Source: a virus
Length of the DNA stretch: 64,000 nucleotides
Strand: one strand, 5' to 3'
Virus record (IMG/VR): IMGVR_UViG_3300027714_000011
Span: 1 to 64,000 of that record
Part shown: positions 3,366 to 20,222 of the stretch, piece by piece
Numbering within the stretch: the first letter of the stretch is position 1
Layout: every line of letters starts with the position of its first letter
Notes under the pieces: model-generated
Database searches by the model: none
Seen by the model: only the letters and a program-made list of their open reading frames with translations
What the model was told of the DNA's origin: nothing
Program-made: the position numbers and the translations under genes

Positions 3366-6300
3366 ATGCCAACTGTTTCAAATCAAAACATAATCATAGT
3401 ATTGCCAGAATTGGCACGTATTATTAGAGGACAAGCAAACAGTATAGATTTGGTGTTACACCAAGACTATATTGGAAACCAATTAAATATTGGTCTTGCA
3501 ACTGAAGTAAAAATAGAACTATATGACGTTAATAACTCTTTAGTCCAAACTGTTTCAAAATCAGGAGCCAATCTTACATATGGATCTCCTAACTCAGAAT
3601 CACAGGGTAAGATTTCTCTAGCATTAACCGCAGATCAAACAGCTGCATTACCGTTTGGAGCTACTGAAGTATCAGGAGCTTTAAAAGCAAAGGTATATGT
3701 AACTCTAGGAATTAATTTAGTTCAATTACCTACACTTAAATTAGCAAACATATATGACGCTGGAGATATTATTGGTGATATAGTTGCTAGTAGATTTACT
3801 TTACCGGGTTCGGTTTATAAAGTAAAATCATTTACTATTGCAGATAAACCAAGTGGAGGTGAAATAATACTGAATGATACCAATCCTTCAGGCGTAACTA
3901 AAATTAGAATATCGGTTACAGATGATAAGGGATATAGAAATGCTTATCTTGAATCTATATTAGAAAATAGAATTGATGTTGATGGAGTATTAGTATCATT
4001 ATTCTTAACTAACGTACATAATAATAGTGAGTATTCTACTTTTGAAATTAAAAGCTGGAGCAGAGTTGATGTATTAAACTCAAATCCTGCATCTCCTTTA
4101 TTAGATGACGATAGTGATGCAATAGAATTAATAGTTGCAGCAGAAGGTAATTCAACTATTGGAACCGAGGTATATGACATATCTACAGGTGATCAGTTAG
4201 GTATCTTTACAGAATCTTACTCTTCACCGCATGGTATATCAATTACACCAAGCGGATTAGCTACAATAACAGACGTTAATAATCTTACATTTTCAGGTGG
4301 AGCAATAGTCAATCAATTAGGAAACGGCAACGTTGATGTTGTATTTCCTTCAGTTGTAGTAACTACTTCTGGAACTAGTGGATCTTCAGGAATTGATGGT
4401 CTTAACGGTGAAGCTGGAACATCTGGAATTGACGGTCTTAATGGAACATCTGGAATTGACGGAACATCTGGAATTGACGGTCTTAATGGAACATCTGGAA
4501 TTGACGGAACATCAGGAATTGATGGTCTTAATGGAACATCTGGAATTGATGGAACATCTGGAACCGATGGTGTAACTGGAGCTAAAGGTGATCAAGGTGA
4601 TGCTGGAGCTAAAGGTGACGTTGGAGCTACTGGAGTACAAGGTATTCAAGGCGTTAAAGGTGATGTTGGAAACGACGGAGCTAATGGAATTGATGGAGTA
4701 GCTGGAACTAATGGAACATCTGGAATTGACGGCATAAACGGAGTTAAAGGTGATCAAGGTGATACTGGAGCTAAAGGCGATACTGGAGTACAAGGTATTC
4801 AAGGTGATCAAGGTATTCAAGGATTATTCGGACATGATGGTATTGATGGAGTAGCTGGAGATCCTGGAAGTGATGGATTAGATGGTGTTGATGGTGCTAG
4901 CGGAACTTCTGGTACTAATGGAGAGAATGGTGCAGCTGGAGCTGACGGTGCTAACGGTGCCGATGGAACTTCTGGTATTAATGGAGTAGATGGAGCTAAA
5001 GGTGATCAAGGCGATACTGGAATACAAGGTGAAGTTGGAGCTAAAGGCGATCAAGGTGAAGTTGGAGCTAAAGGTGATGTTGGAAACGATGGAGCTAATG
5101 GAACATCTGGGATTGATGGTATACGCGGAGCTAAAGGCGATCAAGGTGATCAAGGTGATGCTGGAATACAAGGTATTCAAGGTGAAGTTGGAGCTAAAGG
5201 CGATCAAGGTGATAATGGAACATCAGGTATTAATGGAACATCAGGTATTAATGGAACATCAGGTATTAATGGTATTCAAGGTGATACTGGTCTTAAAGGT
5301 GATCAAGGCGATACTGGAATACAAGGTGTTCAAGGTGTCAAAGGTGATGCTGGAAACAATGGAACATCTGGTATCGATGGTATTCAAGGTATTCAAGGTG
5401 AAGTTGGAGCTAATGGAACATCAGGAATTGATGGTATAAACGGAGCTAAAGGTGATCAAGGCGATACTGGAATACAAGGTGTTCAAGGTGTTCAAGGTGT
5501 TCAAGGTGAAGTTGGAGCTAAAGGTGATCAAGGTGATCAAGGTGTTAAAGGTGATGCTGGAAACGATGGAGCTGATGGATCACAAGGTGTTAAAGGTGAT
5601 GCTGGAAACGATGGAGCTGATGGTAATAATGGAACATCAGGAATTGATGGAGCTAAGGGTGATCAAGGTGATGCTGGTCTTAAAGGAGATCAAGGTGATC
5701 AAGGAGCACAAGGTACTATTGGAATACAAGGCGTTCAAGGTGAAGTTGGAGCTAAGGGTGATCAAGGTGATCAAGGCGTTAAAGGTGATGCTGGTAATAA
5801 CGGAGCACAAGGTAACGATGGAACTAACGGTTCTTCAGGAATTAATGGAGCTGCTGGTAATAACGGAGCACAAGGTAACGATGGAACTAGTGGTTCTTCA
5901 GGAATTAATGGAGCTGCTGGTAATAACGGAGCACAAGGTAACGATGGAACTAGTGGTTCTTCAGGAATTAAAGGTGATCAAGGTAATACAGGTGATGCTG
6001 GAGCCGCAGCGACAGGATCATTAGTTTCTTATAGAATTAAAGTCAATATGTTATCTAACAGTGTTAATTCAACCACACCTATCGCAAACGTATGGTCACC
6101 AGGCGGAGTAGAAATATATAATTCAACCGATGGTTGGTCTGTATCTGGATGGAATATTGCTAGATCAAATAACAATTTAACACTTACTCACACGTTGGCT
6201 AAACCGATATTAATGGGAACAGCACAAGGTAGAAACGGTTCTAACTTATTTGTCTCACAGTTTATTGGTAAAAATGCATCTACTTTATCTATACAAAATG

Positions 6301-6407
6301 TCGATGGAAATGCATATGTAAAATTCAACGGTATAACAAGTATCAATACAGGTGCTGCAACAGGTGGAGCCACAGATGTGATCATAACATTTGTAGTAGA
6401 ATCATAA
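3366..6407 (+). CDS. Collagen-like fibre protein with G-X-Y repeats
   Basis: A 1013-residue protein in three parts. Residues 1 to about 335 are a globular anchor with beta-rich, Ig-like segments. Residues 336 to about 880 form an uninterrupted Gly-X-Y array of roughly 180 triplets of two kinds, GTSGIDGLNG and GAKGDQGDTGIQG. About 130 residues at the end form a globular tip (GSLVSYRIKVNML to VIITFVVES). G-X-Y arrays fold as collagen triple helices and are common in phage tail fibres and tips. Few prolines occur in the array, as in other phage collagens, where K/D/Q pairs replace hydroxyproline for stability. A 63-base unit (GNNGAQGNDGTSGSSGINGA plus A) is repeated nearly three times at 5790-5969. 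The protein is probably a host-contact fibre; the attachment site on the virion is unknown. Confidence 0.85.
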   Translation: MPTVSNQNIIIVLPELARIIRGQANSIDLVLHQDYIGNQLNIGLATEVKIELYDVNNSLVQTVSKSGANLTYGSPNSESQGKISLALTADQTAALPFGATEVSGALKAKVYVTLGINLVQLPTLKLANIYDAGDIIGDIVASRFTLPGSVYKVKSFTIADKPSGGEIILNDTNPSGVTKIRISVTDDKGYRNAYLESILENRIDVDGVLVSLFLTNVHNNSEYSTFEIKSWSRVDVLNSNPASPLLDDDSDAIELIVAAEGNSTIGTEVYDISTGDQLGIFTESYSSPHGISITPSGLATITDVNNLTFSGGAIVNQLGNGNVDVVFPSVVVTTSGTSGSSGIDGLNGEAGTSGIDGLNGTSGIDGTSGIDGLNGTSGIDGTSGIDGLNGTSGIDGTSGTDGVTGAKGDQGDAGAKGDVGATGVQGIQGVKGDVGNDGANGIDGVAGTNGTSGIDGINGVKGDQGDTGAKGDTGVQGIQGDQGIQGLFGHDGIDGVAGDPGSDGLDGVDGASGTSGTNGENGAAGADGANGADGTSGINGVDGAKGDQGDTGIQGEVGAKGDQGEVGAKGDVGNDGANGTSGIDGIRGAKGDQGDQGDAGIQGIQGEVGAKGDQGDNGTSGINGTSGINGTSGINGIQGDTGLKGDQGDTGIQGVQGVKGDAGNNGTSGIDGIQGIQGEVGANGTSGIDGINGAKGDQGDTGIQGVQGVQGVQGEVGAKGDQGDQGVKGDAGNDGADGSQGVKGDAGNDGADGNNGTSGIDGAKGDQGDAGLKGDQGDQGAQGTIGIQGVQGEVGAKGDQGDQGVKGDAGNNGAQGNDGTNGSSGINGAAGNNGAQGNDGTSGSSGINGAAGNNGAQGNDGTSGSSGIKGDQGNTGDAGAAATGSLVSYRIKVNMLSNSVNSTTPIANVWSPGGVEIYNSTDGWSVSGWNIARSNNNLTLTHTLAKPILMGTAQGRNGSNLFVSQFIGKNASTLSIQNVDGNAYVKFNGITSINTGAATGGATDVIITFVVES
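5790..5969 (+). repeat. 63-base tandem repeat inside the collagen-like gene
   Basis: Nearly three in-frame copies, starting at 5790, 5853 and 5916. The first differs by AAC for AGT in one codon. Each encodes 21 residues, that is seven G-X-Y triplets. The near identity points to recent expansion or slippage. Confidence 0.85.
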
Positions 6408-8530: not shown

Positions 8531-9730
8531 ATGAACATAGGTATCACAGTACACATAGACAATGAAAATGAAAGCATATGGACTAATGGTATTAAATTAA
8601 ATGCACTGTATTTACTAAAGGCTTTAAAGACTATTGGTTATAACGCATATTTAATAAACGCAGGTAAACTGCAAGGATCATATGAGAATAAAGTTCCTTG
8701 GAATATAGAAGAGTTTCCAATCTATAATTATTCAGGAAAAGCAAAAGACACTGATCTTATGATTTGGTTAGGATCAACATATTCAGACGAAAACATTCTA
8801 GATTTTAAGAAAACTGGCCCTAATAAAAAAGTTGTCAAATATACATGTGGTAATAACTACATGAATGACACTGAAGCGGTTGTCTTTGGAAGTGAAATTA
8901 CAGCAGGTTACAATCAAGAGCTAGATGAAGTGTGGTATGTACCTCAACAAGAAGAACTAAACAGAGAATATTATAGAGTACTTCATAATTTACCAGCAAA
9001 CAAAGTGAAACCAGTACCGTTTATATGGGATCCTGTTTTTATAGATGCTACATGTGAATCTTATTATTCTAATGGCACAATAGAAAACAATATACCTATT
9101 CCAATCTATAGACCTGGAAAACCTAATGAAGAAAAGCAGCTAGCATGTTTTGAACCAAATATTGGCGTTATGAAATATCATATAAATAATCTTTTAATAG
9201 CAGAAGATTATCTAAATAAAGGCGGAGATTTTAAAAAATTAAATGTAGTATGTGGCGACAAATTATTGGGAAGCAAATACTATGCGTCTGTGATTAAACA
9301 CACTAAAATATTTAATGTAGATCCTATTAAATTATCATATTTACCTAGATTAAGAGCAGTTGATGCATTGGCTCAATTGGCAGATGTGGTTATTGCACAC
9401 CAACTCACAAACCCTCTTAATTATTCATATTTGGATGCATTGTATCTTCAGTTTCCATTAGTACATAATGCACCAATGATCAAAGATGCAGGCTATTATT
9501 ATCATGGCAATAATATAGGTTCAGGAGCTAGACAACTAAAACTAGCAATTGAAGAGCATGACAATAACATAGAAGAATATATCGAGCGTAGCGAAAATGT
9601 TTTAACTAGATATACTATATTCAATGAAGGTTTATTAGAAACATATAAACAACTAATAGAAACTACTATGGGAATTAAGGATCATAAATTAAGTGGAAAT
9701 TATGATTGGCAAACAAATCTTTATAAATAA
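8531..9730 (+). CDS. DUF2827-type glycosyltransferase
   Basis: A 399-residue protein. The start NIGITVHIDNENESIWTNGI followed by a helix (NALYLLKAL) is the opening of the DUF2827 family of GT-B-like glycosyltransferases. Later landmarks also fit: EPNIGVMKYHINNLLIAEDY in the middle, and HQLTNPLNYSYLDALYLQF with LVHNAPMIKDAGYYYHG near the end, which looks like the sugar-nucleotide side of GT-B folds. The family occurs in phages and bacteria and has little biochemistry behind it. The gene lies among fibre genes whose products are very rich in Ser, Thr and Asn, so glycosylation of these fibres is a reasonable inference. It ends on the base where the next gene begins. Confidence 0.72.
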   Translation: MNIGITVHIDNENESIWTNGIKLNALYLLKALKTIGYNAYLINAGKLQGSYENKVPWNIEEFPIYNYSGKAKDTDLMIWLGSTYSDENILDFKKTGPNKKVVKYTCGNNYMNDTEAVVFGSEITAGYNQELDEVWYVPQQEELNREYYRVLHNLPANKVKPVPFIWDPVFIDATCESYYSNGTIENNIPIPIYRPGKPNEEKQLACFEPNIGVMKYHINNLLIAEDYLNKGGDFKKLNVVCGDKLLGSKYYASVIKHTKIFNVDPIKLSYLPRLRAVDALAQLADVVIAHQLTNPLNYSYLDALYLQFPLVHNAPMIKDAGYYYHGNNIGSGARQLKLAIEEHDNNIEEYIERSENVLTRYTIFNEGLLETYKQLIETTMGIKDHKLSGNYDWQTNLYK

Positions 9731-10420: not shown

Positions 10421-13390
10421 ATGTCTCAATTGAAACTAAAACAAATACTTGAATTCATATCAGATTCACCTGTTACTGGTGATGTACTGGCATATAATTC
10501 GGCGACTGGTAAATACGAAAACGGAGCTCTACCAAATACATTTGGTCTTCGATATAAATATAACACTGCAATTACAGGATCAGTTGCAAATGGTTTTTTC
10601 AGATTTGATGATCCATCATCTCCTACCAATGTAACAATAAGTGAAAGAGATTTATTAGGAAATAACGCAATTCCTTCGTTAGTTGCTATGACAGCGTCTA
10701 CAAATGACAGAAAATCTGTCGTTGTTTTTGCAAGCGCTAACGACGGAAATATATCTAAAACATTTTATGTTAAATCTGTTGCGGTTGGTACAAATGAAAG
10801 AGTATTTGAATTAGAGCCTATATCAAGTTCTAGTTGGGGATTAATGACAAATAATGATGAAACATTCATGTTTATTCAACCTATTGGTAACGTTGGTACA
10901 TCTGGTTCTTCTGGAACTAATGGAACTAATGGAACTAATGGTACATCTGGTTCTTCCGGAACAAACGGGACATCAGGAACTAACGGTACAAACGGAACAT
11001 CGGGAACGAATGGAACTAACGGAACATCGGGAACTAGTGGAACTAACGGATCTTCTGGAATTAATGGTACAAATGGGACATCAGGAATTAATGGTACAAA
11101 TGGGACATCAGGAACTAGTGGAACCAATGGAACGAATGGTTCTTCTGGAACTAATGGAAGTTCAGGAACTAATGGGACATCAGGAGCTAATGGATCAAGC
11201 GGATCATCAGGAACGAATGGAACTAACGGGACATCAGGAATAAATGGAGTAAGTTCTTCTATTGAATTAACAGAAGAAGCTGTTACAGGTCTAGAGGGAA
11301 CTCCAGTTAGTGTTGTAAATGTAGGTACAGAGAGTGCTGCTAAATTAGAGTTTACAATTCCAGTGGGTGCAACAGGTTTACGAGGATTACCTGGAACTCC
11401 AGGAACAAGCGGAAGTTCAGGAACGAATGGTTCTTCAGGAACTAATGGAACTAACGGTACATCAGGTTCTTCAGGAACTGATGGAACTTCAGGAACTGAT
11501 GGATCAAGTGGATCTTCAGGAACTAATGGAACTTCAGGAAATGATGGAACAAGTGGAAGCTCAGGTTCTTCAGGTTCTTCTGGAACTAACGGTACTTCTG
11601 GAACTGATGGAACTTCAGGTTCTTCAGGTTCTTCAGGAACAGACGGAACTAGTGGAACAAACGGAACATCAGGTTCTTCAGGAACTGATGGAAGTTCAGG
11701 TTCTTCAGGAACTAATGGAACTAGTGGAACAAACGGAACTAGTGGAACAAACGGAACATCAGGTTCTTCAGGAACTGATGGAACTAGTGGAACTAACGGT
11801 ACATCAGGAACTGATGGAAGTTCAGGTTCTTCAGGAACGAATGGAACAAGTGGAACTAGTGGAACTAACGGTACATCAGGAACTGATGGAAGTTCAGGTT
11901 CTTCAGGAACGAATGGAACTAACGGAACATCAGGTTCTTCAGGAACTGATGGAAGTTCAGGTTCTTCAGGAACTGATGGAACGAGTGGAACTAACGGTTC
12001 TTCAGGAACTGATGGAAGTTCAGGTTCTTCAGGAACTGATGGAACTAGTGGAACAAACGGAAGTTCAGGTTCTTCAGGAACGAATGGTTCTTCTGGAACT
12101 AACGGTACAAATGGTACATCAGGAACGAATGGTACATCAGGAACTAAAGGTGATCAAGGTAATCCAGGTTGGGGTGTTTCAATGCAAGGACAAGTAGCTA
12201 CATCATCAAATTTGCCAGCTACTGGTAATTCAGATGGTGATGCATATATAGTACAATCAGATGATTCACTTTGGGTATTTACACAAGCCGATGGTTGGAT
12301 TGGAGGTGGTTCTATTCAAGGACCACAAGGTAACGCTGGTACTTCAGGAACGAATGGAACTAACGGAACATCAGGTTCTTCAGGAACTAATGGAACTAGC
12401 GGAAGTTCAGGAACTGATGGAAGTTCAGGTTCTTCAGGAACAAATGGAACTAGTGGAACAAACGGAACTTCTGGTTCTTCAGGAACTGATGGAACTTCTG
12501 GTTCTTCAGGAACTGATGGAACTAGTGGAACAAACGGAACTAGTGGAAGTTCAGGTTCTTCAGGAACAAATGGAACTAGTGGAACAAATGGAACATCAGG
12601 TTCTTCAGGAACGAATGGAACTTCAGGTTCTTCAGGAACAAATGGAACTAGTGGAACAAACGGAAGTTCAGGTTCTTCAGGAACGAATGGTTCTTCTGGA
12701 ACGAATGGAACATCAGGAACAAACGGAACTTCTGGTTCTTCAGGTGTTAATGGTCTTGATGGTGTAGATGGTATCTCTGGAACTTCAGGTGTTAGTGGAA
12801 CTTCAGGTTCTTCAGGAACGAATGGAAGTTCAGGTTCTTCAGGAACGAATGGAACTAGTGGAACGAATGGAAGTTCAGGTTCTTCAGGAACGAATGGAAC
12901 TAGTGGAACGAATGGAAGTTCAGGTTCTTCAGGAACTAATGGAACTAATGGTTCTTCGGGTTCTTCTGGTCTTGACGGTGAAACAGGAACATCTAATACA
13001 TATGCAACTGCAATGAACCAATACACAAATACTGGTTCAGATGTACAGCACGCTGATTTATATTTGACAGGTCGTTTACAAAGAGAAATGATAGTAGCAA
13101 ATAACGGAGCAATTCCAGTACAAACAGGCGATGCCTTCATTATTAATGCAGACGGTGTAGTAACTATCAGTATGACTGGATTAAACACTTCATGTGCTGG
13201 TCAATCAGGAACTATTGTAATCGTCAACAGCGCAGGAGGATCAGATTTTAGCCAATTGCCAGCATATATGTTAACACCATCAGGTGCAGATATAGAATTT
13301 GTAACCGAGCCTTATGCTGTTTCAATTATATCATACCATATATTAAGTCAAACGCAAGTACTTTGTAACTATATAGGCCATTTTGCATAA
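10421..13390 (+). CDS. Second collagen-like fibre, Gly-Thr-Ser/Gly-Thr-Asn repeats
   Basis: A 989-residue protein. It opens with MSQLKLKQILEF and a tail-fibre-like LAYNSATGKYEN motif. Residues from about 157 on are G-X-Y arrays made almost only of GTSG, GSSG, GTNG and GTDG. Two globular inserts break the array: one at about 280-325 (beta, then GATGLRGLPGTPG) and one at about 585-635 that contains DGDAYIVQSDDSLWVFTQA and ends in IQGPQG, a small domain common in phage fibres before collagen segments. The last 130 residues form a beta-rich tip (LYLTGRLQREMIV to VLCNYIGHFA). The K/D/Q pairs that stabilise bacterial collagens are nearly absent, so this Ser/Thr/Asn-only array may be stabilised otherwise, for example by glycans (inference). 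Confidence 0.85.
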   Translation: MSQLKLKQILEFISDSPVTGDVLAYNSATGKYENGALPNTFGLRYKYNTAITGSVANGFFRFDDPSSPTNVTISERDLLGNNAIPSLVAMTASTNDRKSVVVFASANDGNISKTFYVKSVAVGTNERVFELEPISSSSWGLMTNNDETFMFIQPIGNVGTSGSSGTNGTNGTNGTSGSSGTNGTSGTNGTNGTSGTNGTNGTSGTSGTNGSSGINGTNGTSGINGTNGTSGTSGTNGTNGSSGTNGSSGTNGTSGANGSSGSSGTNGTNGTSGINGVSSSIELTEEAVTGLEGTPVSVVNVGTESAAKLEFTIPVGATGLRGLPGTPGTSGSSGTNGSSGTNGTNGTSGSSGTDGTSGTDGSSGSSGTNGTSGNDGTSGSSGSSGSSGTNGTSGTDGTSGSSGSSGTDGTSGTNGTSGSSGTDGSSGSSGTNGTSGTNGTSGTNGTSGSSGTDGTSGTNGTSGTDGSSGSSGTNGTSGTSGTNGTSGTDGSSGSSGTNGTNGTSGSSGTDGSSGSSGTDGTSGTNGSSGTDGSSGSSGTDGTSGTNGSSGSSGTNGSSGTNGTNGTSGTNGTSGTKGDQGNPGWGVSMQGQVATSSNLPATGNSDGDAYIVQSDDSLWVFTQADGWIGGGSIQGPQGNAGTSGTNGTNGTSGSSGTNGTSGSSGTDGSSGSSGTNGTSGTNGTSGSSGTDGTSGSSGTDGTSGTNGTSGSSGSSGTNGTSGTNGTSGSSGTNGTSGSSGTNGTSGTNGSSGSSGTNGSSGTNGTSGTNGTSGSSGVNGLDGVDGISGTSGVSGTSGSSGTNGSSGSSGTNGTSGTNGSSGSSGTNGTSGTNGSSGSSGTNGTNGSSGSSGLDGETGTSNTYATAMNQYTNTGSDVQHADLYLTGRLQREMIVANNGAIPVQTGDAFIINADGVVTISMTGLNTSCAGQSGTIVIVNSAGGSDFSQLPAYMLTPSGADIEFVTEPYAVSIISYHILSQTQVLCNYIGHFA

Positions 13391-13418: not shown

Positions 13419-16400
13419 ATGAAGAATATAGGATTTTCGAAGATTGATTTCTGGAGTACTGGTAGCGGCGTGGGAACAAGTCACACCACAAACAAGAGTA
13501 CTACGACCACGTGGAGCACTAGTAAATCTACTACAGAACAACGAAGCACAACTAGGTCTACTAAAACAGCGTTCAATACTAGTCAATCTACTAGTACTGT
13601 ATGGACAACTACTTGGGCAACTTCAAAGAATACTTCTACTACATGGAATACATCTCATAGTACAACTACTACTTGGGCAACTTCACAAAGTACGACTACT
13701 ACATGGACAACTACATGGACAACTTCAAGAGGCACTGATAGATTAACAGATAAATCAACTACTACTACTTGGACAACTTCAAGGGGTACTGATAGATTAA
13801 CAGATAAATCAACTACAACTTTTTGGACAACTAAATGGAATACTAGTCAGTCAACGTCAACAGTATGGACTACGGTATGGCAAACTAGTTTAGGAACTGA
13901 GAAATCTACTACAACTACATACAATACTTCTTGGACTACATCATGGAATACTAGTCAATCAACAACTACAGTTTATACAAGTGCGTATAACACTTCTTGG
14001 TCTACTAATAGAGGAACATCTAGATCAACTGATCATTCCACGGTTACTGTGTATACGACTACGTGGTCAACATCCAGAGTAACGTCAACTGCATATACTA
14101 CTTATTTTAACACAACATGGTCAACTAGTCAATCTACTGAACATTCCACAGTTACAGTATATACGACTACTTGGTCAACTAGTAAAGGTACTAATAGAGG
14201 AACATCACATTCTACAACAACTACTTGGAATACAAGTAAAGGAACATCACATTCTACAGTTACAACATATACGACTACTTGGTCAACTAGTAAGGGTACT
14301 AGTAGATCAACTAACCACTCGACTACAACTACATTTAATACAAGCCAGTCGACGAGCAGAGCTACGACTACTGTATATACAACTACATGGCAAACTAGTC
14401 GCGGTACTTCTAGGGGTACAGCACATTCAACGACAACTAAATGGAATACTAGTCAGTCAACAAGCAAATCTACAACAACTGCGTATACTACTTACTATAA
14501 TACAACTAGAGGAACTAGTAGAGGAACTAGTAAAGCCACAACAACAACATGGCAAACTAGTAAGGGCACATCACATTCAACAGTGACTGTATATACAACA
14601 ACATGGCAAACTAATCACGGTACTTCTAGAGGCACGGCGCATTCAACAACAACTAAATGGAATACTAGTCAGTCAACAAGTAGAACTACTACAACGTCTT
14701 ATACTACTTATTATAACACAACTAGGGGAACTTCTAGGGGAACTAGCAAAGCTACTACAACTACATGGTCAACGAGTAGAGGTACATCACATTCAACTAC
14801 TACAGCGTATACAACTACGTTTAATACTAGTAGAGCAACAACTACTGCATGGACTACGTCATGGACTACTACTTTTGGAACTAGTAGAGGTACACAACAT
14901 GCAACAACAACTACGTGGACAACAACATGGTCAACGAGTAGAGCTACAACAACTTCATATACAACTACATTTAACACTAGTAGAGGAACTAATAGAGGAA
15001 CTAGTAAATCTACTACAACTACATGGCAAACCAGTAGAGGTACATCACATTCAACTCAGACAACATATAATACTAGTTGGAACACAACTAGGGCTACAAC
15101 AACGTCATATAATACATCGTGGACTACTACGTTTGCAACGACACATTCAACATCTAGAGCCACTACTACGACGTGGGCAACGAGTAGAGGTACATCGCAT
15201 TCAACTACTACAGCGTATACAACTACGTTTAATACTAGTAAAGCAACAACAACTACATGGACTACTTCATGGACAACCACTTATGGAACTAGTAGAGGTA
15301 CGCAACACGCAACAACAACTGCGTGGACAACAACATGGTCAACGAGTAAATCTACAACAACTGCTTATACTACTTATTATAATACAACTAGAGGAACTAG
15401 TAGAGGAACTAGTAAATCTACTACAACCACATGGGGAACTAGTAAAGGTACATCACATTCAACAGTCACAGTGTATAATACTAGTTGGAATACATCTAGA
15501 AACACGACGACTTCATGGACTACTTCATGGACAACTACGTTTGCAACGACCCATTCAACATCTAGAGCCACTACTACAACGTGGAACACCACTAGGGCTA
15601 CAACGACTTCGTGGACTACTTATTATAATACCAGTAGAGGAACTAATAGAGGAACTAGTAAATCTACTACTACGACATGGCAAACTAGTCACGGTACATC
15701 ACGTTCAACAACGACTACGTATAATACTAGTTGGAACACTAGTAAAGCAACAACGACTTCATGGACAACTTCATGGACAACTACGTTTGCAACGACCCAT
15801 TCGACATCTAAAGCCACTACTACGACGTGGCAAACTAGTCGCGGTACATCACGTTCAACAACAACTACGTATAATACTGCTTGGAATACATCTAAAAACA
15901 CGACCACTACATTTAATACAACAGTTTATACCGTATTCGCAACGAGTAGAGGTACATCAAAGTCAACGACTACCAAATATGGTACATCAAAGTCAACGAC
16001 TACCACATTTGGTACATCACATTCAACAACGACTGCATGGGTTGCTTCTAGAGGTACATCTAAGTCTACGACGACACAGTGGAGTACTGCTTGGAATACA
16101 TCTAAGTCTACAACGACTAGGTATAACACTAGTAAATCAACGACTACTGTATGGGCTACTTCTTGGGCGACGTCTAAGTCAACTACGACTACTTGGTTGA
16201 CATCTAGGTCTACGACCACTACGTTTAATACTAGTAAATCAACGACTACTACGTTTAACACTAGTAAATCAACGACTACATCATGGTCGTATAATGTTGG
16301 TACATCTAGAACGACACTTAAACATTATTCTAAAACAACACTTAAGACGTATAATAGATCAACATATATTGATCGAAGTACAGTATATAATACTAGTTGG

Positions 16401-17054
16401 ACACAATCCTCAGCAATCAACACGGCATGGAGTACTAGTTATTATATAAACACAAAATGGACAACAGGTAGAAGCACAGTATCAGAGGAAATAGAGTGTA
16501 TAGTAGAAGGCTCATTAGTGCATATTTCAACAACACAACAAGTTAAAGTTGAAACATTGCAACCAGGTGATCCTATTTTAACATTAGATGGAACGTTCAA
16601 TCTCGATGATGAGGATTTATTATTTGCATTAAAAGAAGACCAACTTTCCGATATAAAATCAAATGATGATTATATATCAGCAATCATGGTTTCTCAAGTT
16701 ACAGGCGTATGCGATATAAACAACGGTTTATTAAAAACAACACTCAATCACATTCATATTGTAAAAAGAACTGTTCCAGATTCAGAAATTAAAAAATGGA
16801 TTGCAATAGAAGGTTATCAACTAGTGGTTGGTGATATTTTATGGCACATCACTAATGGAGAAATTCCTATAACATCAGTAGCAGTAGACGAAACAAACAT
16901 ATATACTGTATATAAACTAGACGTTGAACCAAATGATGTCTTTTATGCTAACGGTATTTTAACGCATAACAGGAAATGTGATCCGGAGGAATATTGCAAC
17001 CGCCGCAATATATGTTACGATCGATCAAAATGTTTGGACGATGGACAGTTTTAA
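13419..17054 (+). CDS. Thr-rich repeat protein with C-terminal Hint domain
   Basis: A 1211-residue protein. Residues 1 to about 1020 are built from degenerate units of about ten residues of the form [ST]-T-T-T-[WYF]-x-T-S-[RK]-[AGS]. Close to half of the residues are Thr; Trp/Tyr/Phe and Lys/Arg/His recur at fixed places, proline is absent and acidic residues are rare. Residues 1027-1184 form a Hint domain: Cys1027 in CIVEGSLVHI (block A), VETLQPGDPILTLDG, the block B TxxH (TLNH), and YANGILTHN ending in His1183-Asn1184. The residue after Asn is Arg, so canonical splicing is not expected. The protein ends in 27 residues with four Cys spaced exactly six apart. The repeat part is probably an extended fibre. 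The Hint domain could cleave or attach it. Confidence 0.85.
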   Translation: MKNIGFSKIDFWSTGSGVGTSHTTNKSTTTTWSTSKSTTEQRSTTRSTKTAFNTSQSTSTVWTTTWATSKNTSTTWNTSHSTTTTWATSQSTTTTWTTTWTTSRGTDRLTDKSTTTTWTTSRGTDRLTDKSTTTFWTTKWNTSQSTSTVWTTVWQTSLGTEKSTTTTYNTSWTTSWNTSQSTTTVYTSAYNTSWSTNRGTSRSTDHSTVTVYTTTWSTSRVTSTAYTTYFNTTWSTSQSTEHSTVTVYTTTWSTSKGTNRGTSHSTTTTWNTSKGTSHSTVTTYTTTWSTSKGTSRSTNHSTTTTFNTSQSTSRATTTVYTTTWQTSRGTSRGTAHSTTTKWNTSQSTSKSTTTAYTTYYNTTRGTSRGTSKATTTTWQTSKGTSHSTVTVYTTTWQTNHGTSRGTAHSTTTKWNTSQSTSRTTTTSYTTYYNTTRGTSRGTSKATTTTWSTSRGTSHSTTTAYTTTFNTSRATTTAWTTSWTTTFGTSRGTQHATTTTWTTTWSTSRATTTSYTTTFNTSRGTNRGTSKSTTTTWQTSRGTSHSTQTTYNTSWNTTRATTTSYNTSWTTTFATTHSTSRATTTTWATSRGTSHSTTTAYTTTFNTSKATTTTWTTSWTTTYGTSRGTQHATTTAWTTTWSTSKSTTTAYTTYYNTTRGTSRGTSKSTTTTWGTSKGTSHSTVTVYNTSWNTSRNTTTSWTTSWTTTFATTHSTSRATTTTWNTTRATTTSWTTYYNTSRGTNRGTSKSTTTTWQTSHGTSRSTTTTYNTSWNTSKATTTSWTTSWTTTFATTHSTSKATTTTWQTSRGTSRSTTTTYNTAWNTSKNTTTTFNTTVYTVFATSRGTSKSTTTKYGTSKSTTTTFGTSHSTTTAWVASRGTSKSTTTQWSTAWNTSKSTTTRYNTSKSTTTVWATSWATSKSTTTTWLTSRSTTTTFNTSKSTTTTFNTSKSTTTSWSYNVGTSRTTLKHYSKTTLKTYNRSTYIDRSTVYNTSWTQSSAINTAWSTSYYINTKWTTGRSTVSEEIECIVEGSLVHISTTQQVKVETLQPGDPILTLDGTFNLDDEDLLFALKEDQLSDIKSNDDYISAIMVSQVTGVCDINNGLLKTTLNHIHIVKRTVPDSEIKKWIAIEGYQLVVGDILWHITNGEIPITSVAVDETNIYTVYKLDVEPNDVFYANGILTHNRKCDPEEYCNRRNICYDRSKCLDDGQF
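16497..16970 (+). other. Hint (hedgehog/intein) domain coding segment
   Basis: This segment encodes residues 1027-1184 of the first Thr-rich protein. It has the nucleophile Cys at the domain start, TxxH in the middle and a terminal His-Asn, the residues used for N-S acyl shift and Asn cyclisation. No homing endonuclease is inserted, as the domain is only about 158 residues. The next residue is Arg, as in bacterial intein-like (BIL) domains rather than true inteins. Confidence 0.87.
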
Positions 17055-17093: not shown

Positions 17094-20000
17094 ATGGCAT
17101 CATACACTACATATTGGAGCGCTTCGAGAAGTGAAATAAGATACAGGAATACCTATCAAAATACTGCGATAGATCAAACTTATAGTAGGTCTACTTCCCA
17201 TACTACAAGGGTCTATTACAACACGTCATGGACTGCTAACGCAACAACGTCATGGACTGCTAACGTGACCACCGAATGGGCCACTTCATATTCAGCATCT
17301 AAGTCTACAACGACTACGTTTAATACATCTAAGTCTACAACGACTACGTTTAATACATCTAAGTCTACAACGACTACGTTTAATACATCTAAGGCCACCA
17401 CTACAGCATGGACTGCAAGTAGAAATACTAGTAGAGCTACTACAACTACATATATTACATCTAAGGCAACCACTACGGCGTGGACTGCAAAACGTAATAC
17501 AACTAGAGCAACGACGACTTCATGGACTACTTCTTGGAATACTTCTAAGGCTACAACGACTTCGTACAGCACATCTAGAAACACAACGACTTCGTATAAT
17601 ACAACGCATTCAACTACTACATCATATAGCACTTATTGGAATACAGCTAGAAATACAACTAGGAGTACTAGTAAAAGTACCTCAACTACATGGTCAACTA
17701 GTCAAAGCACATCGCATTCAACGACTACGTCGTATACGACTTATTATAATACTAGTAAATCAACGACTACGACATATAACACAACATATAACACAACTAG
17801 GGGAACTAATAGAGGAACTAGTAAAACTACCACAACGACATGGTCAACTAGCCAATCTACTAAGCGTTCAACGACTACATCATATACGACTTATTATAAT
17901 ACTAGTAGAGCAACAACTACTGCATGGACTACGTCATGGACAACTACCTTTCAAACTAACAAAGGTACATCGCGTTCAACAACGACTACGTTTAACACTA
18001 GTAGATCAACGACTACGACATATAACACAACATATAACACAACTAGAGGTACATCTAGGGGAACTAGTAAATCTACAGGGACTACTTGGTCAACTAGCCA
18101 ATCTACTAAGCATTCAACGACTACTTCGTATACGACTTATTATAATACTAGTAGAGCAACAACTACTTCATGGACTACTTCATGGGTAACTACTTTTGGA
18201 ACTAGTAGAGGTACATCACATTCGACAACAACTACGTTTAATACTAACCAATCAACTAGTAAATCTACAACTACGAAGTATACTACGTATTACAATACGA
18301 GTAGAGGTACATCTAGAGGAACTAGTAAATCTACAACAACCACGTGGGCAACAAGTAGAGGTACATCACATTCAACGACTACGTCTTATACAACTACGTT
18401 TAATACTAGTAAATCAACGACTACGACGTTTAATACAACATATAACACGGCTAGAGGTACATCTAGGGGAACTAGTAAATCTACCACAACTACATGGTCA
18501 ACTAGTCAAAGTACTAAGCATTCAACGACTACTTCGTATACGACTTATTATAACACTAGTAAAGCAACGACGACTTCATGGACTACATCATGGACAACTA
18601 CTTTTGGAACTAGTAGAGGTACATCGCACTCGACAACGACTACGTTTAATACTAACCAATCAACTAGTAAATCTACAACTACGAAGTATACTACGTATTA
18701 CAATACGAGTAGAGGTACATCTAGAGGAACTAGTAAATCTACCACAACTACATGGGCAACTAGTAGAGGTACATCACATTCAACGACTACATCTTATACA
18801 ACTACGTTTAATACTAACCAATCAACAACGACTGCATGGACTACTTCATGGGTAACTACTTTTGGAACTAGTAGAGGTACATCACATTCGACAACAACTA
18901 CGTTTAATACTTCATGGCAAACAAGTAGAGCTACAACAACATCTTATACTACTTCATGGACTACATATTACAATACAAGTAGAAGTACAGAACATTCAAC
19001 TACTACATCGTATACGACTAAGTTTAACACTAGTAACTCAACGACGACTTCATGGACTACTTCATGGGTAACTACTTTTGGAACTAGTAGAGGTACATCG
19101 CATGCAACGACTACTGTATGGACTACTTCATGGCAAACGAGTAGAGCTACAACAACAGCTTATACTACTTCATGGACTACATATTACAATACAAGTAGAA
19201 GTACAGAACATTCGACAACAACCGTATTCAATACAACATGGTCAACAAGTAAAGCTACAACAACAGCTTATACTACTTCATGGACTACGACATTTAATAC
19301 TAATCAAAGTACAAAACATTCAACTACTACGTCTTATACAACTACGTTTAATACTAGTAAATCAACGACTACGTCATATACTACTTCGTGGACCACGACG
19401 TTTAATACGAATAAATCTACTAGTCATTCAACGACTACTGTGTATACAACTAGTTGGAATACATCTAGGGGAACAAGTAGAGGTACGGAGCATTCAACAA
19501 CAACCACATTTAACACTAATCAGTCTACTGAACATAGTACAACTACAACATACTCGACATCGTGGACGACTTCATGGAACACTAGTCAATCCACTAGTCA
19601 TTCAACGACACATAGTACAACTACTATTTGGGGTACTTCTTTAGGAACAAGTAGATCTACTAATCACTCAACGACAACAACATGGACAACATATTGGAAT
19701 ACTAGTCGAGTTGAGTCGCGTAACACTACGACTACGTGGGTGACACAAGATCAAACAAGTCAGTCAACTGTAACTGAGTGGACAACTTCATGGACAACTT
19801 CATGGAACACAAGTCAATCTACGGTAACTACGTGGACAACTTCATGGACAACTTCATGGAAAACAAGTCAATCTACTAATAAAAGTACAATGACTACGTG
19901 GAACACAACTAAGTCTACTGCGACAGTGTATACAACATCTAGAGTTACTTCTACAACGTGGAATACAAGTCAGTCAACTAATAAAAATACGACAACAACA

Positions 20001-20222
20001 TGGTCGACTTTATATGATGTGACTACTACTTGGACCACGTCTTGGAACACCACTACTACATGGAATACAACTAAAGCTACCACTACCAATTGGACAACGA
20101 GTTATTCAACTGAATACGAAGCAAGAAGAACATGGTATGGAAAAGTCCACACAGGACATGAGATATTCCCTTACGCTACAGTACAACAGTGGAGAGTCAA
20201 TTCTTATTTAGGTCGACCATAG
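17094..20222 (+). CDS. Second Thr-rich repeat protein, without Hint domain
   Basis: A 1042-residue partner of the preceding gene, 39 nt downstream. A 45-residue N-terminal segment (MASYTTYWSASRSEIRYRNT and on) leads into the same type of ten-residue repeats, for example STTTTFNTSK in perfect tandem near residues 70-99. Segments such as YNTSRGTSRGTSKSTTTTWA recur many times. Proline is absent until the last 30 residues, and acidic residues are few, so the shaft is strongly basic. The C-terminus changes to ordinary sequence (EARRTWYGKVHTGHEIFPYA). No family is recognised. The alternating Thr/aromatic pattern would suit a beta-solenoid or stacked-strand fibre, and the Ser/Thr density would suit O-glycosylation. 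Both are inferences. Confidence 0.8.
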   Translation: MASYTTYWSASRSEIRYRNTYQNTAIDQTYSRSTSHTTRVYYNTSWTANATTSWTANVTTEWATSYSASKSTTTTFNTSKSTTTTFNTSKSTTTTFNTSKATTTAWTASRNTSRATTTTYITSKATTTAWTAKRNTTRATTTSWTTSWNTSKATTTSYSTSRNTTTSYNTTHSTTTSYSTYWNTARNTTRSTSKSTSTTWSTSQSTSHSTTTSYTTYYNTSKSTTTTYNTTYNTTRGTNRGTSKTTTTTWSTSQSTKRSTTTSYTTYYNTSRATTTAWTTSWTTTFQTNKGTSRSTTTTFNTSRSTTTTYNTTYNTTRGTSRGTSKSTGTTWSTSQSTKHSTTTSYTTYYNTSRATTTSWTTSWVTTFGTSRGTSHSTTTTFNTNQSTSKSTTTKYTTYYNTSRGTSRGTSKSTTTTWATSRGTSHSTTTSYTTTFNTSKSTTTTFNTTYNTARGTSRGTSKSTTTTWSTSQSTKHSTTTSYTTYYNTSKATTTSWTTSWTTTFGTSRGTSHSTTTTFNTNQSTSKSTTTKYTTYYNTSRGTSRGTSKSTTTTWATSRGTSHSTTTSYTTTFNTNQSTTTAWTTSWVTTFGTSRGTSHSTTTTFNTSWQTSRATTTSYTTSWTTYYNTSRSTEHSTTTSYTTKFNTSNSTTTSWTTSWVTTFGTSRGTSHATTTVWTTSWQTSRATTTAYTTSWTTYYNTSRSTEHSTTTVFNTTWSTSKATTTAYTTSWTTTFNTNQSTKHSTTTSYTTTFNTSKSTTTSYTTSWTTTFNTNKSTSHSTTTVYTTSWNTSRGTSRGTEHSTTTTFNTNQSTEHSTTTTYSTSWTTSWNTSQSTSHSTTHSTTTIWGTSLGTSRSTNHSTTTTWTTYWNTSRVESRNTTTTWVTQDQTSQSTVTEWTTSWTTSWNTSQSTVTTWTTSWTTSWKTSQSTNKSTMTTWNTTKSTATVYTTSRVTSTTWNTSQSTNKNTTTTWSTLYDVTTTWTTSWNTTTTWNTTKATTTNWTTSYSTEYEARRTWYGKVHTGHEIFPYATVQQWRVNSYLGRP
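17301..17390 (+). repeat. Three exact 30-base tandem repeats
   Basis: Three identical 30-base copies (17301-17330, 17331-17360, 17361-17390) that each encode the ten-residue unit KSTTTTFNTS. Elsewhere in the gene the same peptide is written with other Thr codons (ACT, ACA, ACG, ACC), so these copies are recent and the peptide pattern is what is kept. Confidence 0.92.

Follow-up and report, generated by a model that had tools for sequence, protein, structure and literature searches.

Hint domains, bacterial intein-like domains (BILs) and tail proteins annotated with an "intein domain" are already known. In hedgehog, the Hog domain (1at0) is a C-terminal Hint whose substrate is the chain that precedes it; hedgehog has no terminal His-Asn (HN). 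A-type BILs, such as the Clostridium thermocellum BIL (2lwy), sit inside variable bacterial secreted proteins. They have no nucleophile at position +1 and cleave, and ligation without a nucleophilic side chain is also possible (PMC7664689, PMC5874633); among BILs, cleaved products predominate (PMC7664689). The BIL2 domain of Tetrahymena BUBL1 (6y75, 6tmm) lies between ubiquitin-like domains in a ciliate and has been reported to join its upstream part to the epsilon-amine of a Lys via an isopeptide bond, and also to accept other substrates for conjugation (PMC8616854). In phage NCTB (LT598654), BN7874_132 and BN7874_136 are proteins of the tail-fibre cluster with a C-terminal Hint and tails of 7–8 residues, as in the class described below; they have Ala at +1 and no Thr-rich shaft, and are known by annotation alone, the tail genes being labelled "putative phage tail protein, contains intein domain" and "large intein domain protein". 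Between these Hint-bearing tail genes lies BN7874_135 (L356, 11698–12159), a free-standing Hint that has no N-terminal Cys and ends in HNKVD.

Here, we analyzed a window of 64,000 nucleotides, the whole stretch of DNA under study. The record from which it was taken is a 78,553-bp virus contig encoding baseplate wedge and hub proteins, and is therefore assigned to a contractile-tailed phage. One gene in the window encodes a Thr-rich protein that is probably a fibre of this uncultured phage and that ends in a Hint domain. Its features, all on the plus strand, are as follows:

13419–17054, plus strand: Thr-rich protein of 1,211 amino acids with a C-terminal Hint domain (open reading frame; arrangement shared with related loci L002, L003, L005, L010/L087 and L030/L357)
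13479–16418, plus strand: Thr-rich shaft, residues 21–1000 (41% Thr, Cys-free)
16497–16970, plus strand: Hint domain, Cys1027–Asn1184 (profile, AF2 model and Foldseek)
16497–16499, plus strand: Cys1027 of block A, predicted nucleophile of the N–S acyl shift (invariant in the Hint alignment of the Thr-rich family)
16740–16751, plus strand: block B, T1108-x-x-H1111 (aligned with the Hint profile)
16965–16970, plus strand: block G, His1183-Asn1184 (in profile register; also in L363)
16971–17051, plus strand: 27-residue tail RKCDPEEYCNRRNICYDRSKCLDDGQF, pattern CX5CX5CX5C (Cys pattern also in L002, L003 and L005)
16974–16976, plus strand: Lys1186, position +2 (the sole tail residue conserved in 7/7 family sequences)

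The shaft repeats Thr in a four-residue step and spaces its aromatic residues at 4/10/14/18; its AF2 model was uninformative (pLDDT 36). All six Cys residues of the protein (1027, 1098, 1187, 1193, 1199 and 1205) fall at or after the start of the Hint domain. The gene is flanked by further repeat proteins:

3366–6407: a further collagen-like protein (Pfam search)
10421–13390, plus strand: collagen-like (GTSGTNG) protein directly upstream of the Hint gene (Pfam Collagen, 1e-87)
17094–20222, plus strand: Thr-rich paralogue without a Hint, directly downstream as in Thr-rich relatives (the window protein ends in QWRxNxYxG)

This composition, the neighbouring genes and the analogy with phage NCTB, whose Hint proteins stand among tail-fibre genes, suggest that the Thr-rich proteins are tail fibres located in the virion.

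Every catalytic residue named in the earlier note was found as claimed: Cys1027 in block A (within ECIVEG), the TxxH of block B (T1108-L-N-H1111) and the terminal His1183-Asn1184, followed by Arg at +1 and a tail of 27 residues in all (GILT-H1183-N1184-R1185-K1186 plus 25 residues). Searched as a single sequence, the domain gave weak Pfam matches below the cut-off (Intein_splicing, E = 0.0065; Hint_2, E = 0.016), nothing significant with phmmer against the PDB and only sub-threshold matches in PHROGs. Against a profile of 67 other Hint domains, built without any member of the Thr-rich family, it scored 96 bits and every catalytic residue fell into register, whereas none of 1,000 shuffled versions scored above 9.7 bits. 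AF2 returned a Hint-like model (mean pLDDT 85.9, mostly >90 within the domain), whose Foldseek matches at E < 0.001 were exclusively Hint, intein, BIL and hedgehog structures. On the strength of the score relative to shuffled sequence, the model confidence and these structural matches, residues 1027–1184 are a real and complete Hint domain, and the Hint fold that the earlier note had proposed, with Cys, TxxH and HN in register, was borne out.

The nearest solved structures are BILs. Foldseek ranked BIL2 (6y75, E = 2e-8; also 6tmm) and the C. thermocellum BIL (2lwy, E = 4e-7) first, with inteins and hedgehog after them; in a profile comparison, too, BIL2 (E = 7e-31) and 2lwy (E = 1e-24) outranked every intein. 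The window Hint shares with the A-type BIL the fold, Cys1, TxxH, the terminal His-Asn and a +1 residue other than Cys, Ser or Thr (here Arg1185), whereas it lies at the end of a phage fibre-like protein rather than inside a variable region of a bacterial secreted one. Because of the phage gene and the C-terminal position, we call it BIL-like and not a classical A-type BIL. Its relatives also differ from known A-type BILs in their often very short tails and in Lys at +1 or +2. The Tetrahymena BIL2, its best match by both profile and fold, has no sequence tie to fibres. Hedgehog is a weaker match (E = 1e-4), and its sterol-recognition region is absent from the window, where 27 residues follow a Hint that ends in HN. 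PT-HINT (PF07591) is a related Hint matched by 60/73 relatives; the search of the window's own genome gave no PF07591 match to it, and no toxin domain lies downstream. The HN motif also sets the domain apart from B-type BILs, which have no intein C-terminal motif.

Could the domain be an ordinary mobile intein or a remnant of one? It belongs to the same superfamily, and its block G motif is common to inteins of phage terminase, helicase and polymerase genes. However, class 1 inteins have Cys, Ser or Thr at +1 and interrupt a conserved host protein of which intein-free alleles exist, whereas here +1 is Arg, the Hint is C-terminal and interrupts no conserved protein, there is no homing endonuclease, and all six related loci retain the domain, none of them showing an empty allele. 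We consider such an origin hardly credible, and canonical splicing was rejected on the non-nucleophilic +1 residue. The view of the earlier note, that the protein would be cleaved or transferred rather than spliced, is thus the better fit as to chemistry, with the activity itself predicted from the residues.

Our favoured explanation, which we regard as likely, is that the Hint is a C-terminal, A-type-BIL-like autoprocessing module of a phage virion fibre, removed from the shaft in maturation. After the shaft has folded, Cys1027 would take over the Glu1026–Cys1027 bond as a thioester through an N–S acyl shift, with T1108 and H1111 helping; Asn1184 would cyclise with the help of His1183 and so cut the Hint from the tail. 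Together these steps would rid the Thr-rich shaft, which lacks Cys, of its Hint. The shaft's activated end would next be hydrolysed or, about as likely, be captured by an amine of its own tail, either the side chain of Lys1186 or the freed alpha-amine, in which case the Cys-rich tail would stay on the shaft. Hydrolysis is rated level with capture because Arg replaces Lys in some relatives. A role as autoprocessing module is favoured by L092 and L103, in which the Hint precedes an S74-like SDRRLKKNI motif (a reading of the sequence by eye only), as two putative self-processing modules in a row at a fibre maturation position. Against it, the −1 residue of the window is an acidic Glu where relatives commonly have Gly, and this difference may slow the N–S shift.

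A gene of this kind occurs in six related loci. L002–L005 were found by a search with the Thr-rich repeats, and L010 (= L087), L030 (= L357) and L363 by later searches; L363 is fibre-like and not Thr-rich, and L365 was left out for its broken frame. Directly after the Hint-bearing gene, each Thr-rich locus has another Thr-rich gene that lacks a Hint; the gene before it, where the contig extends that far, has a shared motif at its C-terminus. No Hint-free allele was found among the related loci, and the Hint is C-terminal in all of them. A search of IMG/VR for a Hint-only peptide, tblastn of INPHARED using either Hint or shaft as query, and a profile scan of genome contigs all came back without matches. 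Hints of the Thr-rich family are 45–53% identical to that of the window, and Cys1, TxxH and HN are invariant despite this divergence. Pairwise rates for the Hint part among L002, L003 and L005 (dN 0.11–0.14 versus dS 0.46–0.52; dN/dS about 0.2–0.3) indicate that it is under purifying selection. These observations bear on the idea that the Hint is inactive and retained for its structure, as a knob or as a tip that binds a receptor. The acidic −1 residue would suit that idea, but invariant Cys1, TxxH and HN at about 45–53% identity, and the retention of Cys1 and TxxH across dozens of families, argue against it, and we think it decidedly improbable.

The window has the Cys-rich tail that the earlier note mentioned, but the arrangement does not depend on it, as the tail of L087 is only FKISP. 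Four members have the four-Cys tail; it is altered in L030 and absent from L087 and L363. What persists is a feature that the earlier note had missed, namely Lys at +2 in 7/7 sequences (the window, L002, L003, L005, L087, L030 and L363), where +1 is R, K, K, N, F, R and L, respectively. L363 was recovered by a search that required neither HN nor Lys. Seven of seven would arise by chance at 2e-8 if sites were independent and Lys made up 8% of residues, a figure to be read with the relatedness of the sequences in mind. The conserved Lys points to a possible acceptor in cis.

A wider survey placed this Lys in context. The IMG/VR scan used the motif [FY]ANGILTHN, which requires HN, so that HN conservation in the survey holds by construction. 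Its hits fell into two classes: ordinary inteins, which have Cys, Ser or Thr at +1 and are followed by long exteins, and domains with a different residue at +1, whose tails are mostly short, often of 1–8 residues and down to HNK directly followed by the stop. Targeted IMG/VR scans gave full counts for one motif of 106 stretches with HN-K, 19 with HN-[A,D,E,G,V] and five with HN-[L,P,H,Q,R]. An unbiased motif scan of cellular genomes found at +1 Cys 45 times, Lys 34, Thr 14, Ser 13, Arg 5, Val 2, Phe 1 and Ala 1. After greedy clustering of the unbiased sets at 50% identity, 10/11 viral non-splicing clusters had Lys at +1 or +2 (six at +1, four at +2, one other), and the 19 cellular ones had Lys at +1 in 15, Arg in one and other residues in three; for comparison, Lys occupies ~3% of positions flanking splicing inteins. 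In 74 non-splicing clusters drawn at 60% identity with the targeted scans included, Cys1 was kept in 70/74, the block-B Thr in 66/74 and the block-B His in 74/74, although the searches asked for none of these three residues. A profile also led to toxin-type HINT loci with long downstream domains, which showed Q, Q, C, A, G and G at +1 (n = 6, a small sample); for this reason Lys is taken as a mark of the terminal Hint class and not of all Hints. The recurrence of this arrangement in many other phages and some bacteria suggests, as far as sequence can tell, that these viruses self-process their surface fibres. In eight loci (L139, L140, L161, L012, L019, L035, L041 and L184), two or three Hints stand in tandem within one open reading frame. 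The idea that Asn cleavage exposes an N-terminal Lys as an N-degron was rejected, as many tails are a single residue.

One account of the Lys is isopeptide splicing: Lys at +1 or +2 would attack the thioester of the shaft with its side-chain amine and Asn would cyclise, leaving the shaft bound to its own tail by an isopeptide bond and the Hint discarded. The enrichment of Lys in the surveys, its invariance at +2 in the focal family while +1 and the remaining tail vary, and its absence as a general Hint trait (within the small toxin-type sample) all speak for this chemistry, as does the isopeptide bond to a Lys epsilon-amine reported for the nearest solved relative, Tetrahymena BIL2 (PMC8616854). 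On the other hand, L250, L302, L330, L334 and L304 have Arg in place of Lys and no Lys at +2, and L233 has DR, which, in these relatives at least, points to charge and not to nucleophilicity; charge may be enough. A product with one extra Lys has no obvious use, tails of a single Lys being odd cargo were ligation the point, and the excess of Lys over Arg is inflated by the high Lys content of AT-rich genomes. We hold isopeptide splicing to be possible but on the whole doubtful.

Other fibres shed intramolecular chaperones of the S74 type. By analogy, the Hint could be a self-removing cap for folding or registration, with thioester hydrolysis and Asn cyclisation freeing both Hint and tail. The C-terminal position, tails down to one residue and the S74-like SDRRLKKNI after the Hint in L092 and L103 suit such a cap, and BIL products are mostly cleaved (PMC7664689). 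Cleavage alone would, however, leave the conserved Lys at +1 or +2 unexplained, together with the four-Cys tail of four members, and we give this account a sizeable minority share of our belief.

A third outcome for the thioester is transfer to another chain in a hedgehog-like manner, for instance to the Hint-less paralogue, to the virion or to the host envelope. That paralogue lies directly downstream in the Thr-rich loci, hedgehog-type reactions need no C-extein, and BIL2 is reported to conjugate to other substrates (PMC8616854). Yet no domain comparable to the sterol-recognition region follows the Hint, and HN is retained here, in contrast to hedgehog; external transfer is unlikely in our view. 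The paralogue at 17094–20222 could in any case be a partner or an acceptor of the Hint-bearing protein.

Returning to the autoprocessing module as the favoured reading, the earlier note had called a self-processing fibre of this type undescribed. The open-access papers searched contained no description of a class of C-terminal Hints that end phage fibres and carry Lys at +1 or +2, but the "intein domain" annotation of the NCTB tail proteins already exists, and priority for the class is uncertain. We propose tentatively, and think it rather improbable as a whole, that a widespread class of C-terminal Hints on phage fibres and in some bacteria uses Lys at +1 or +2 as acyl acceptor, leaving the fibre end isopeptide-joined to its tail or a neighbour. 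If the domains are active, Hint-based maturation would give phage fibres another way to process themselves in addition to S74-type chaperones, the genes would not be selfish inteins, and the predicted virion proteins would be shorter than their open reading frames. The Lys signature would predict isopeptide or amine-capture chemistry across a large natural set of small Hints, which might be useful as ligation tools.

The same phage encodes a second Hint at the end of a BACON-domain protein (G000:C1:77400–78551; L355:17400–18551), cut by the end of the record. Near the fibre genes lies a DUF2827 gene (8531–9730), and in a relative, L006, glycosyltransferases of the GT4 and GT25 families (13706–14725 and 14728–16053) stand beside Thr-rich and collagen-like shafts; glycosylation of the shafts is possible. 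The record starts with a C-terminal fragment of a Clp ATPase (1–300, by eye, frame 3), followed by thymidylate synthase (332–1186) and a ClpP-like protease (1497–2183).
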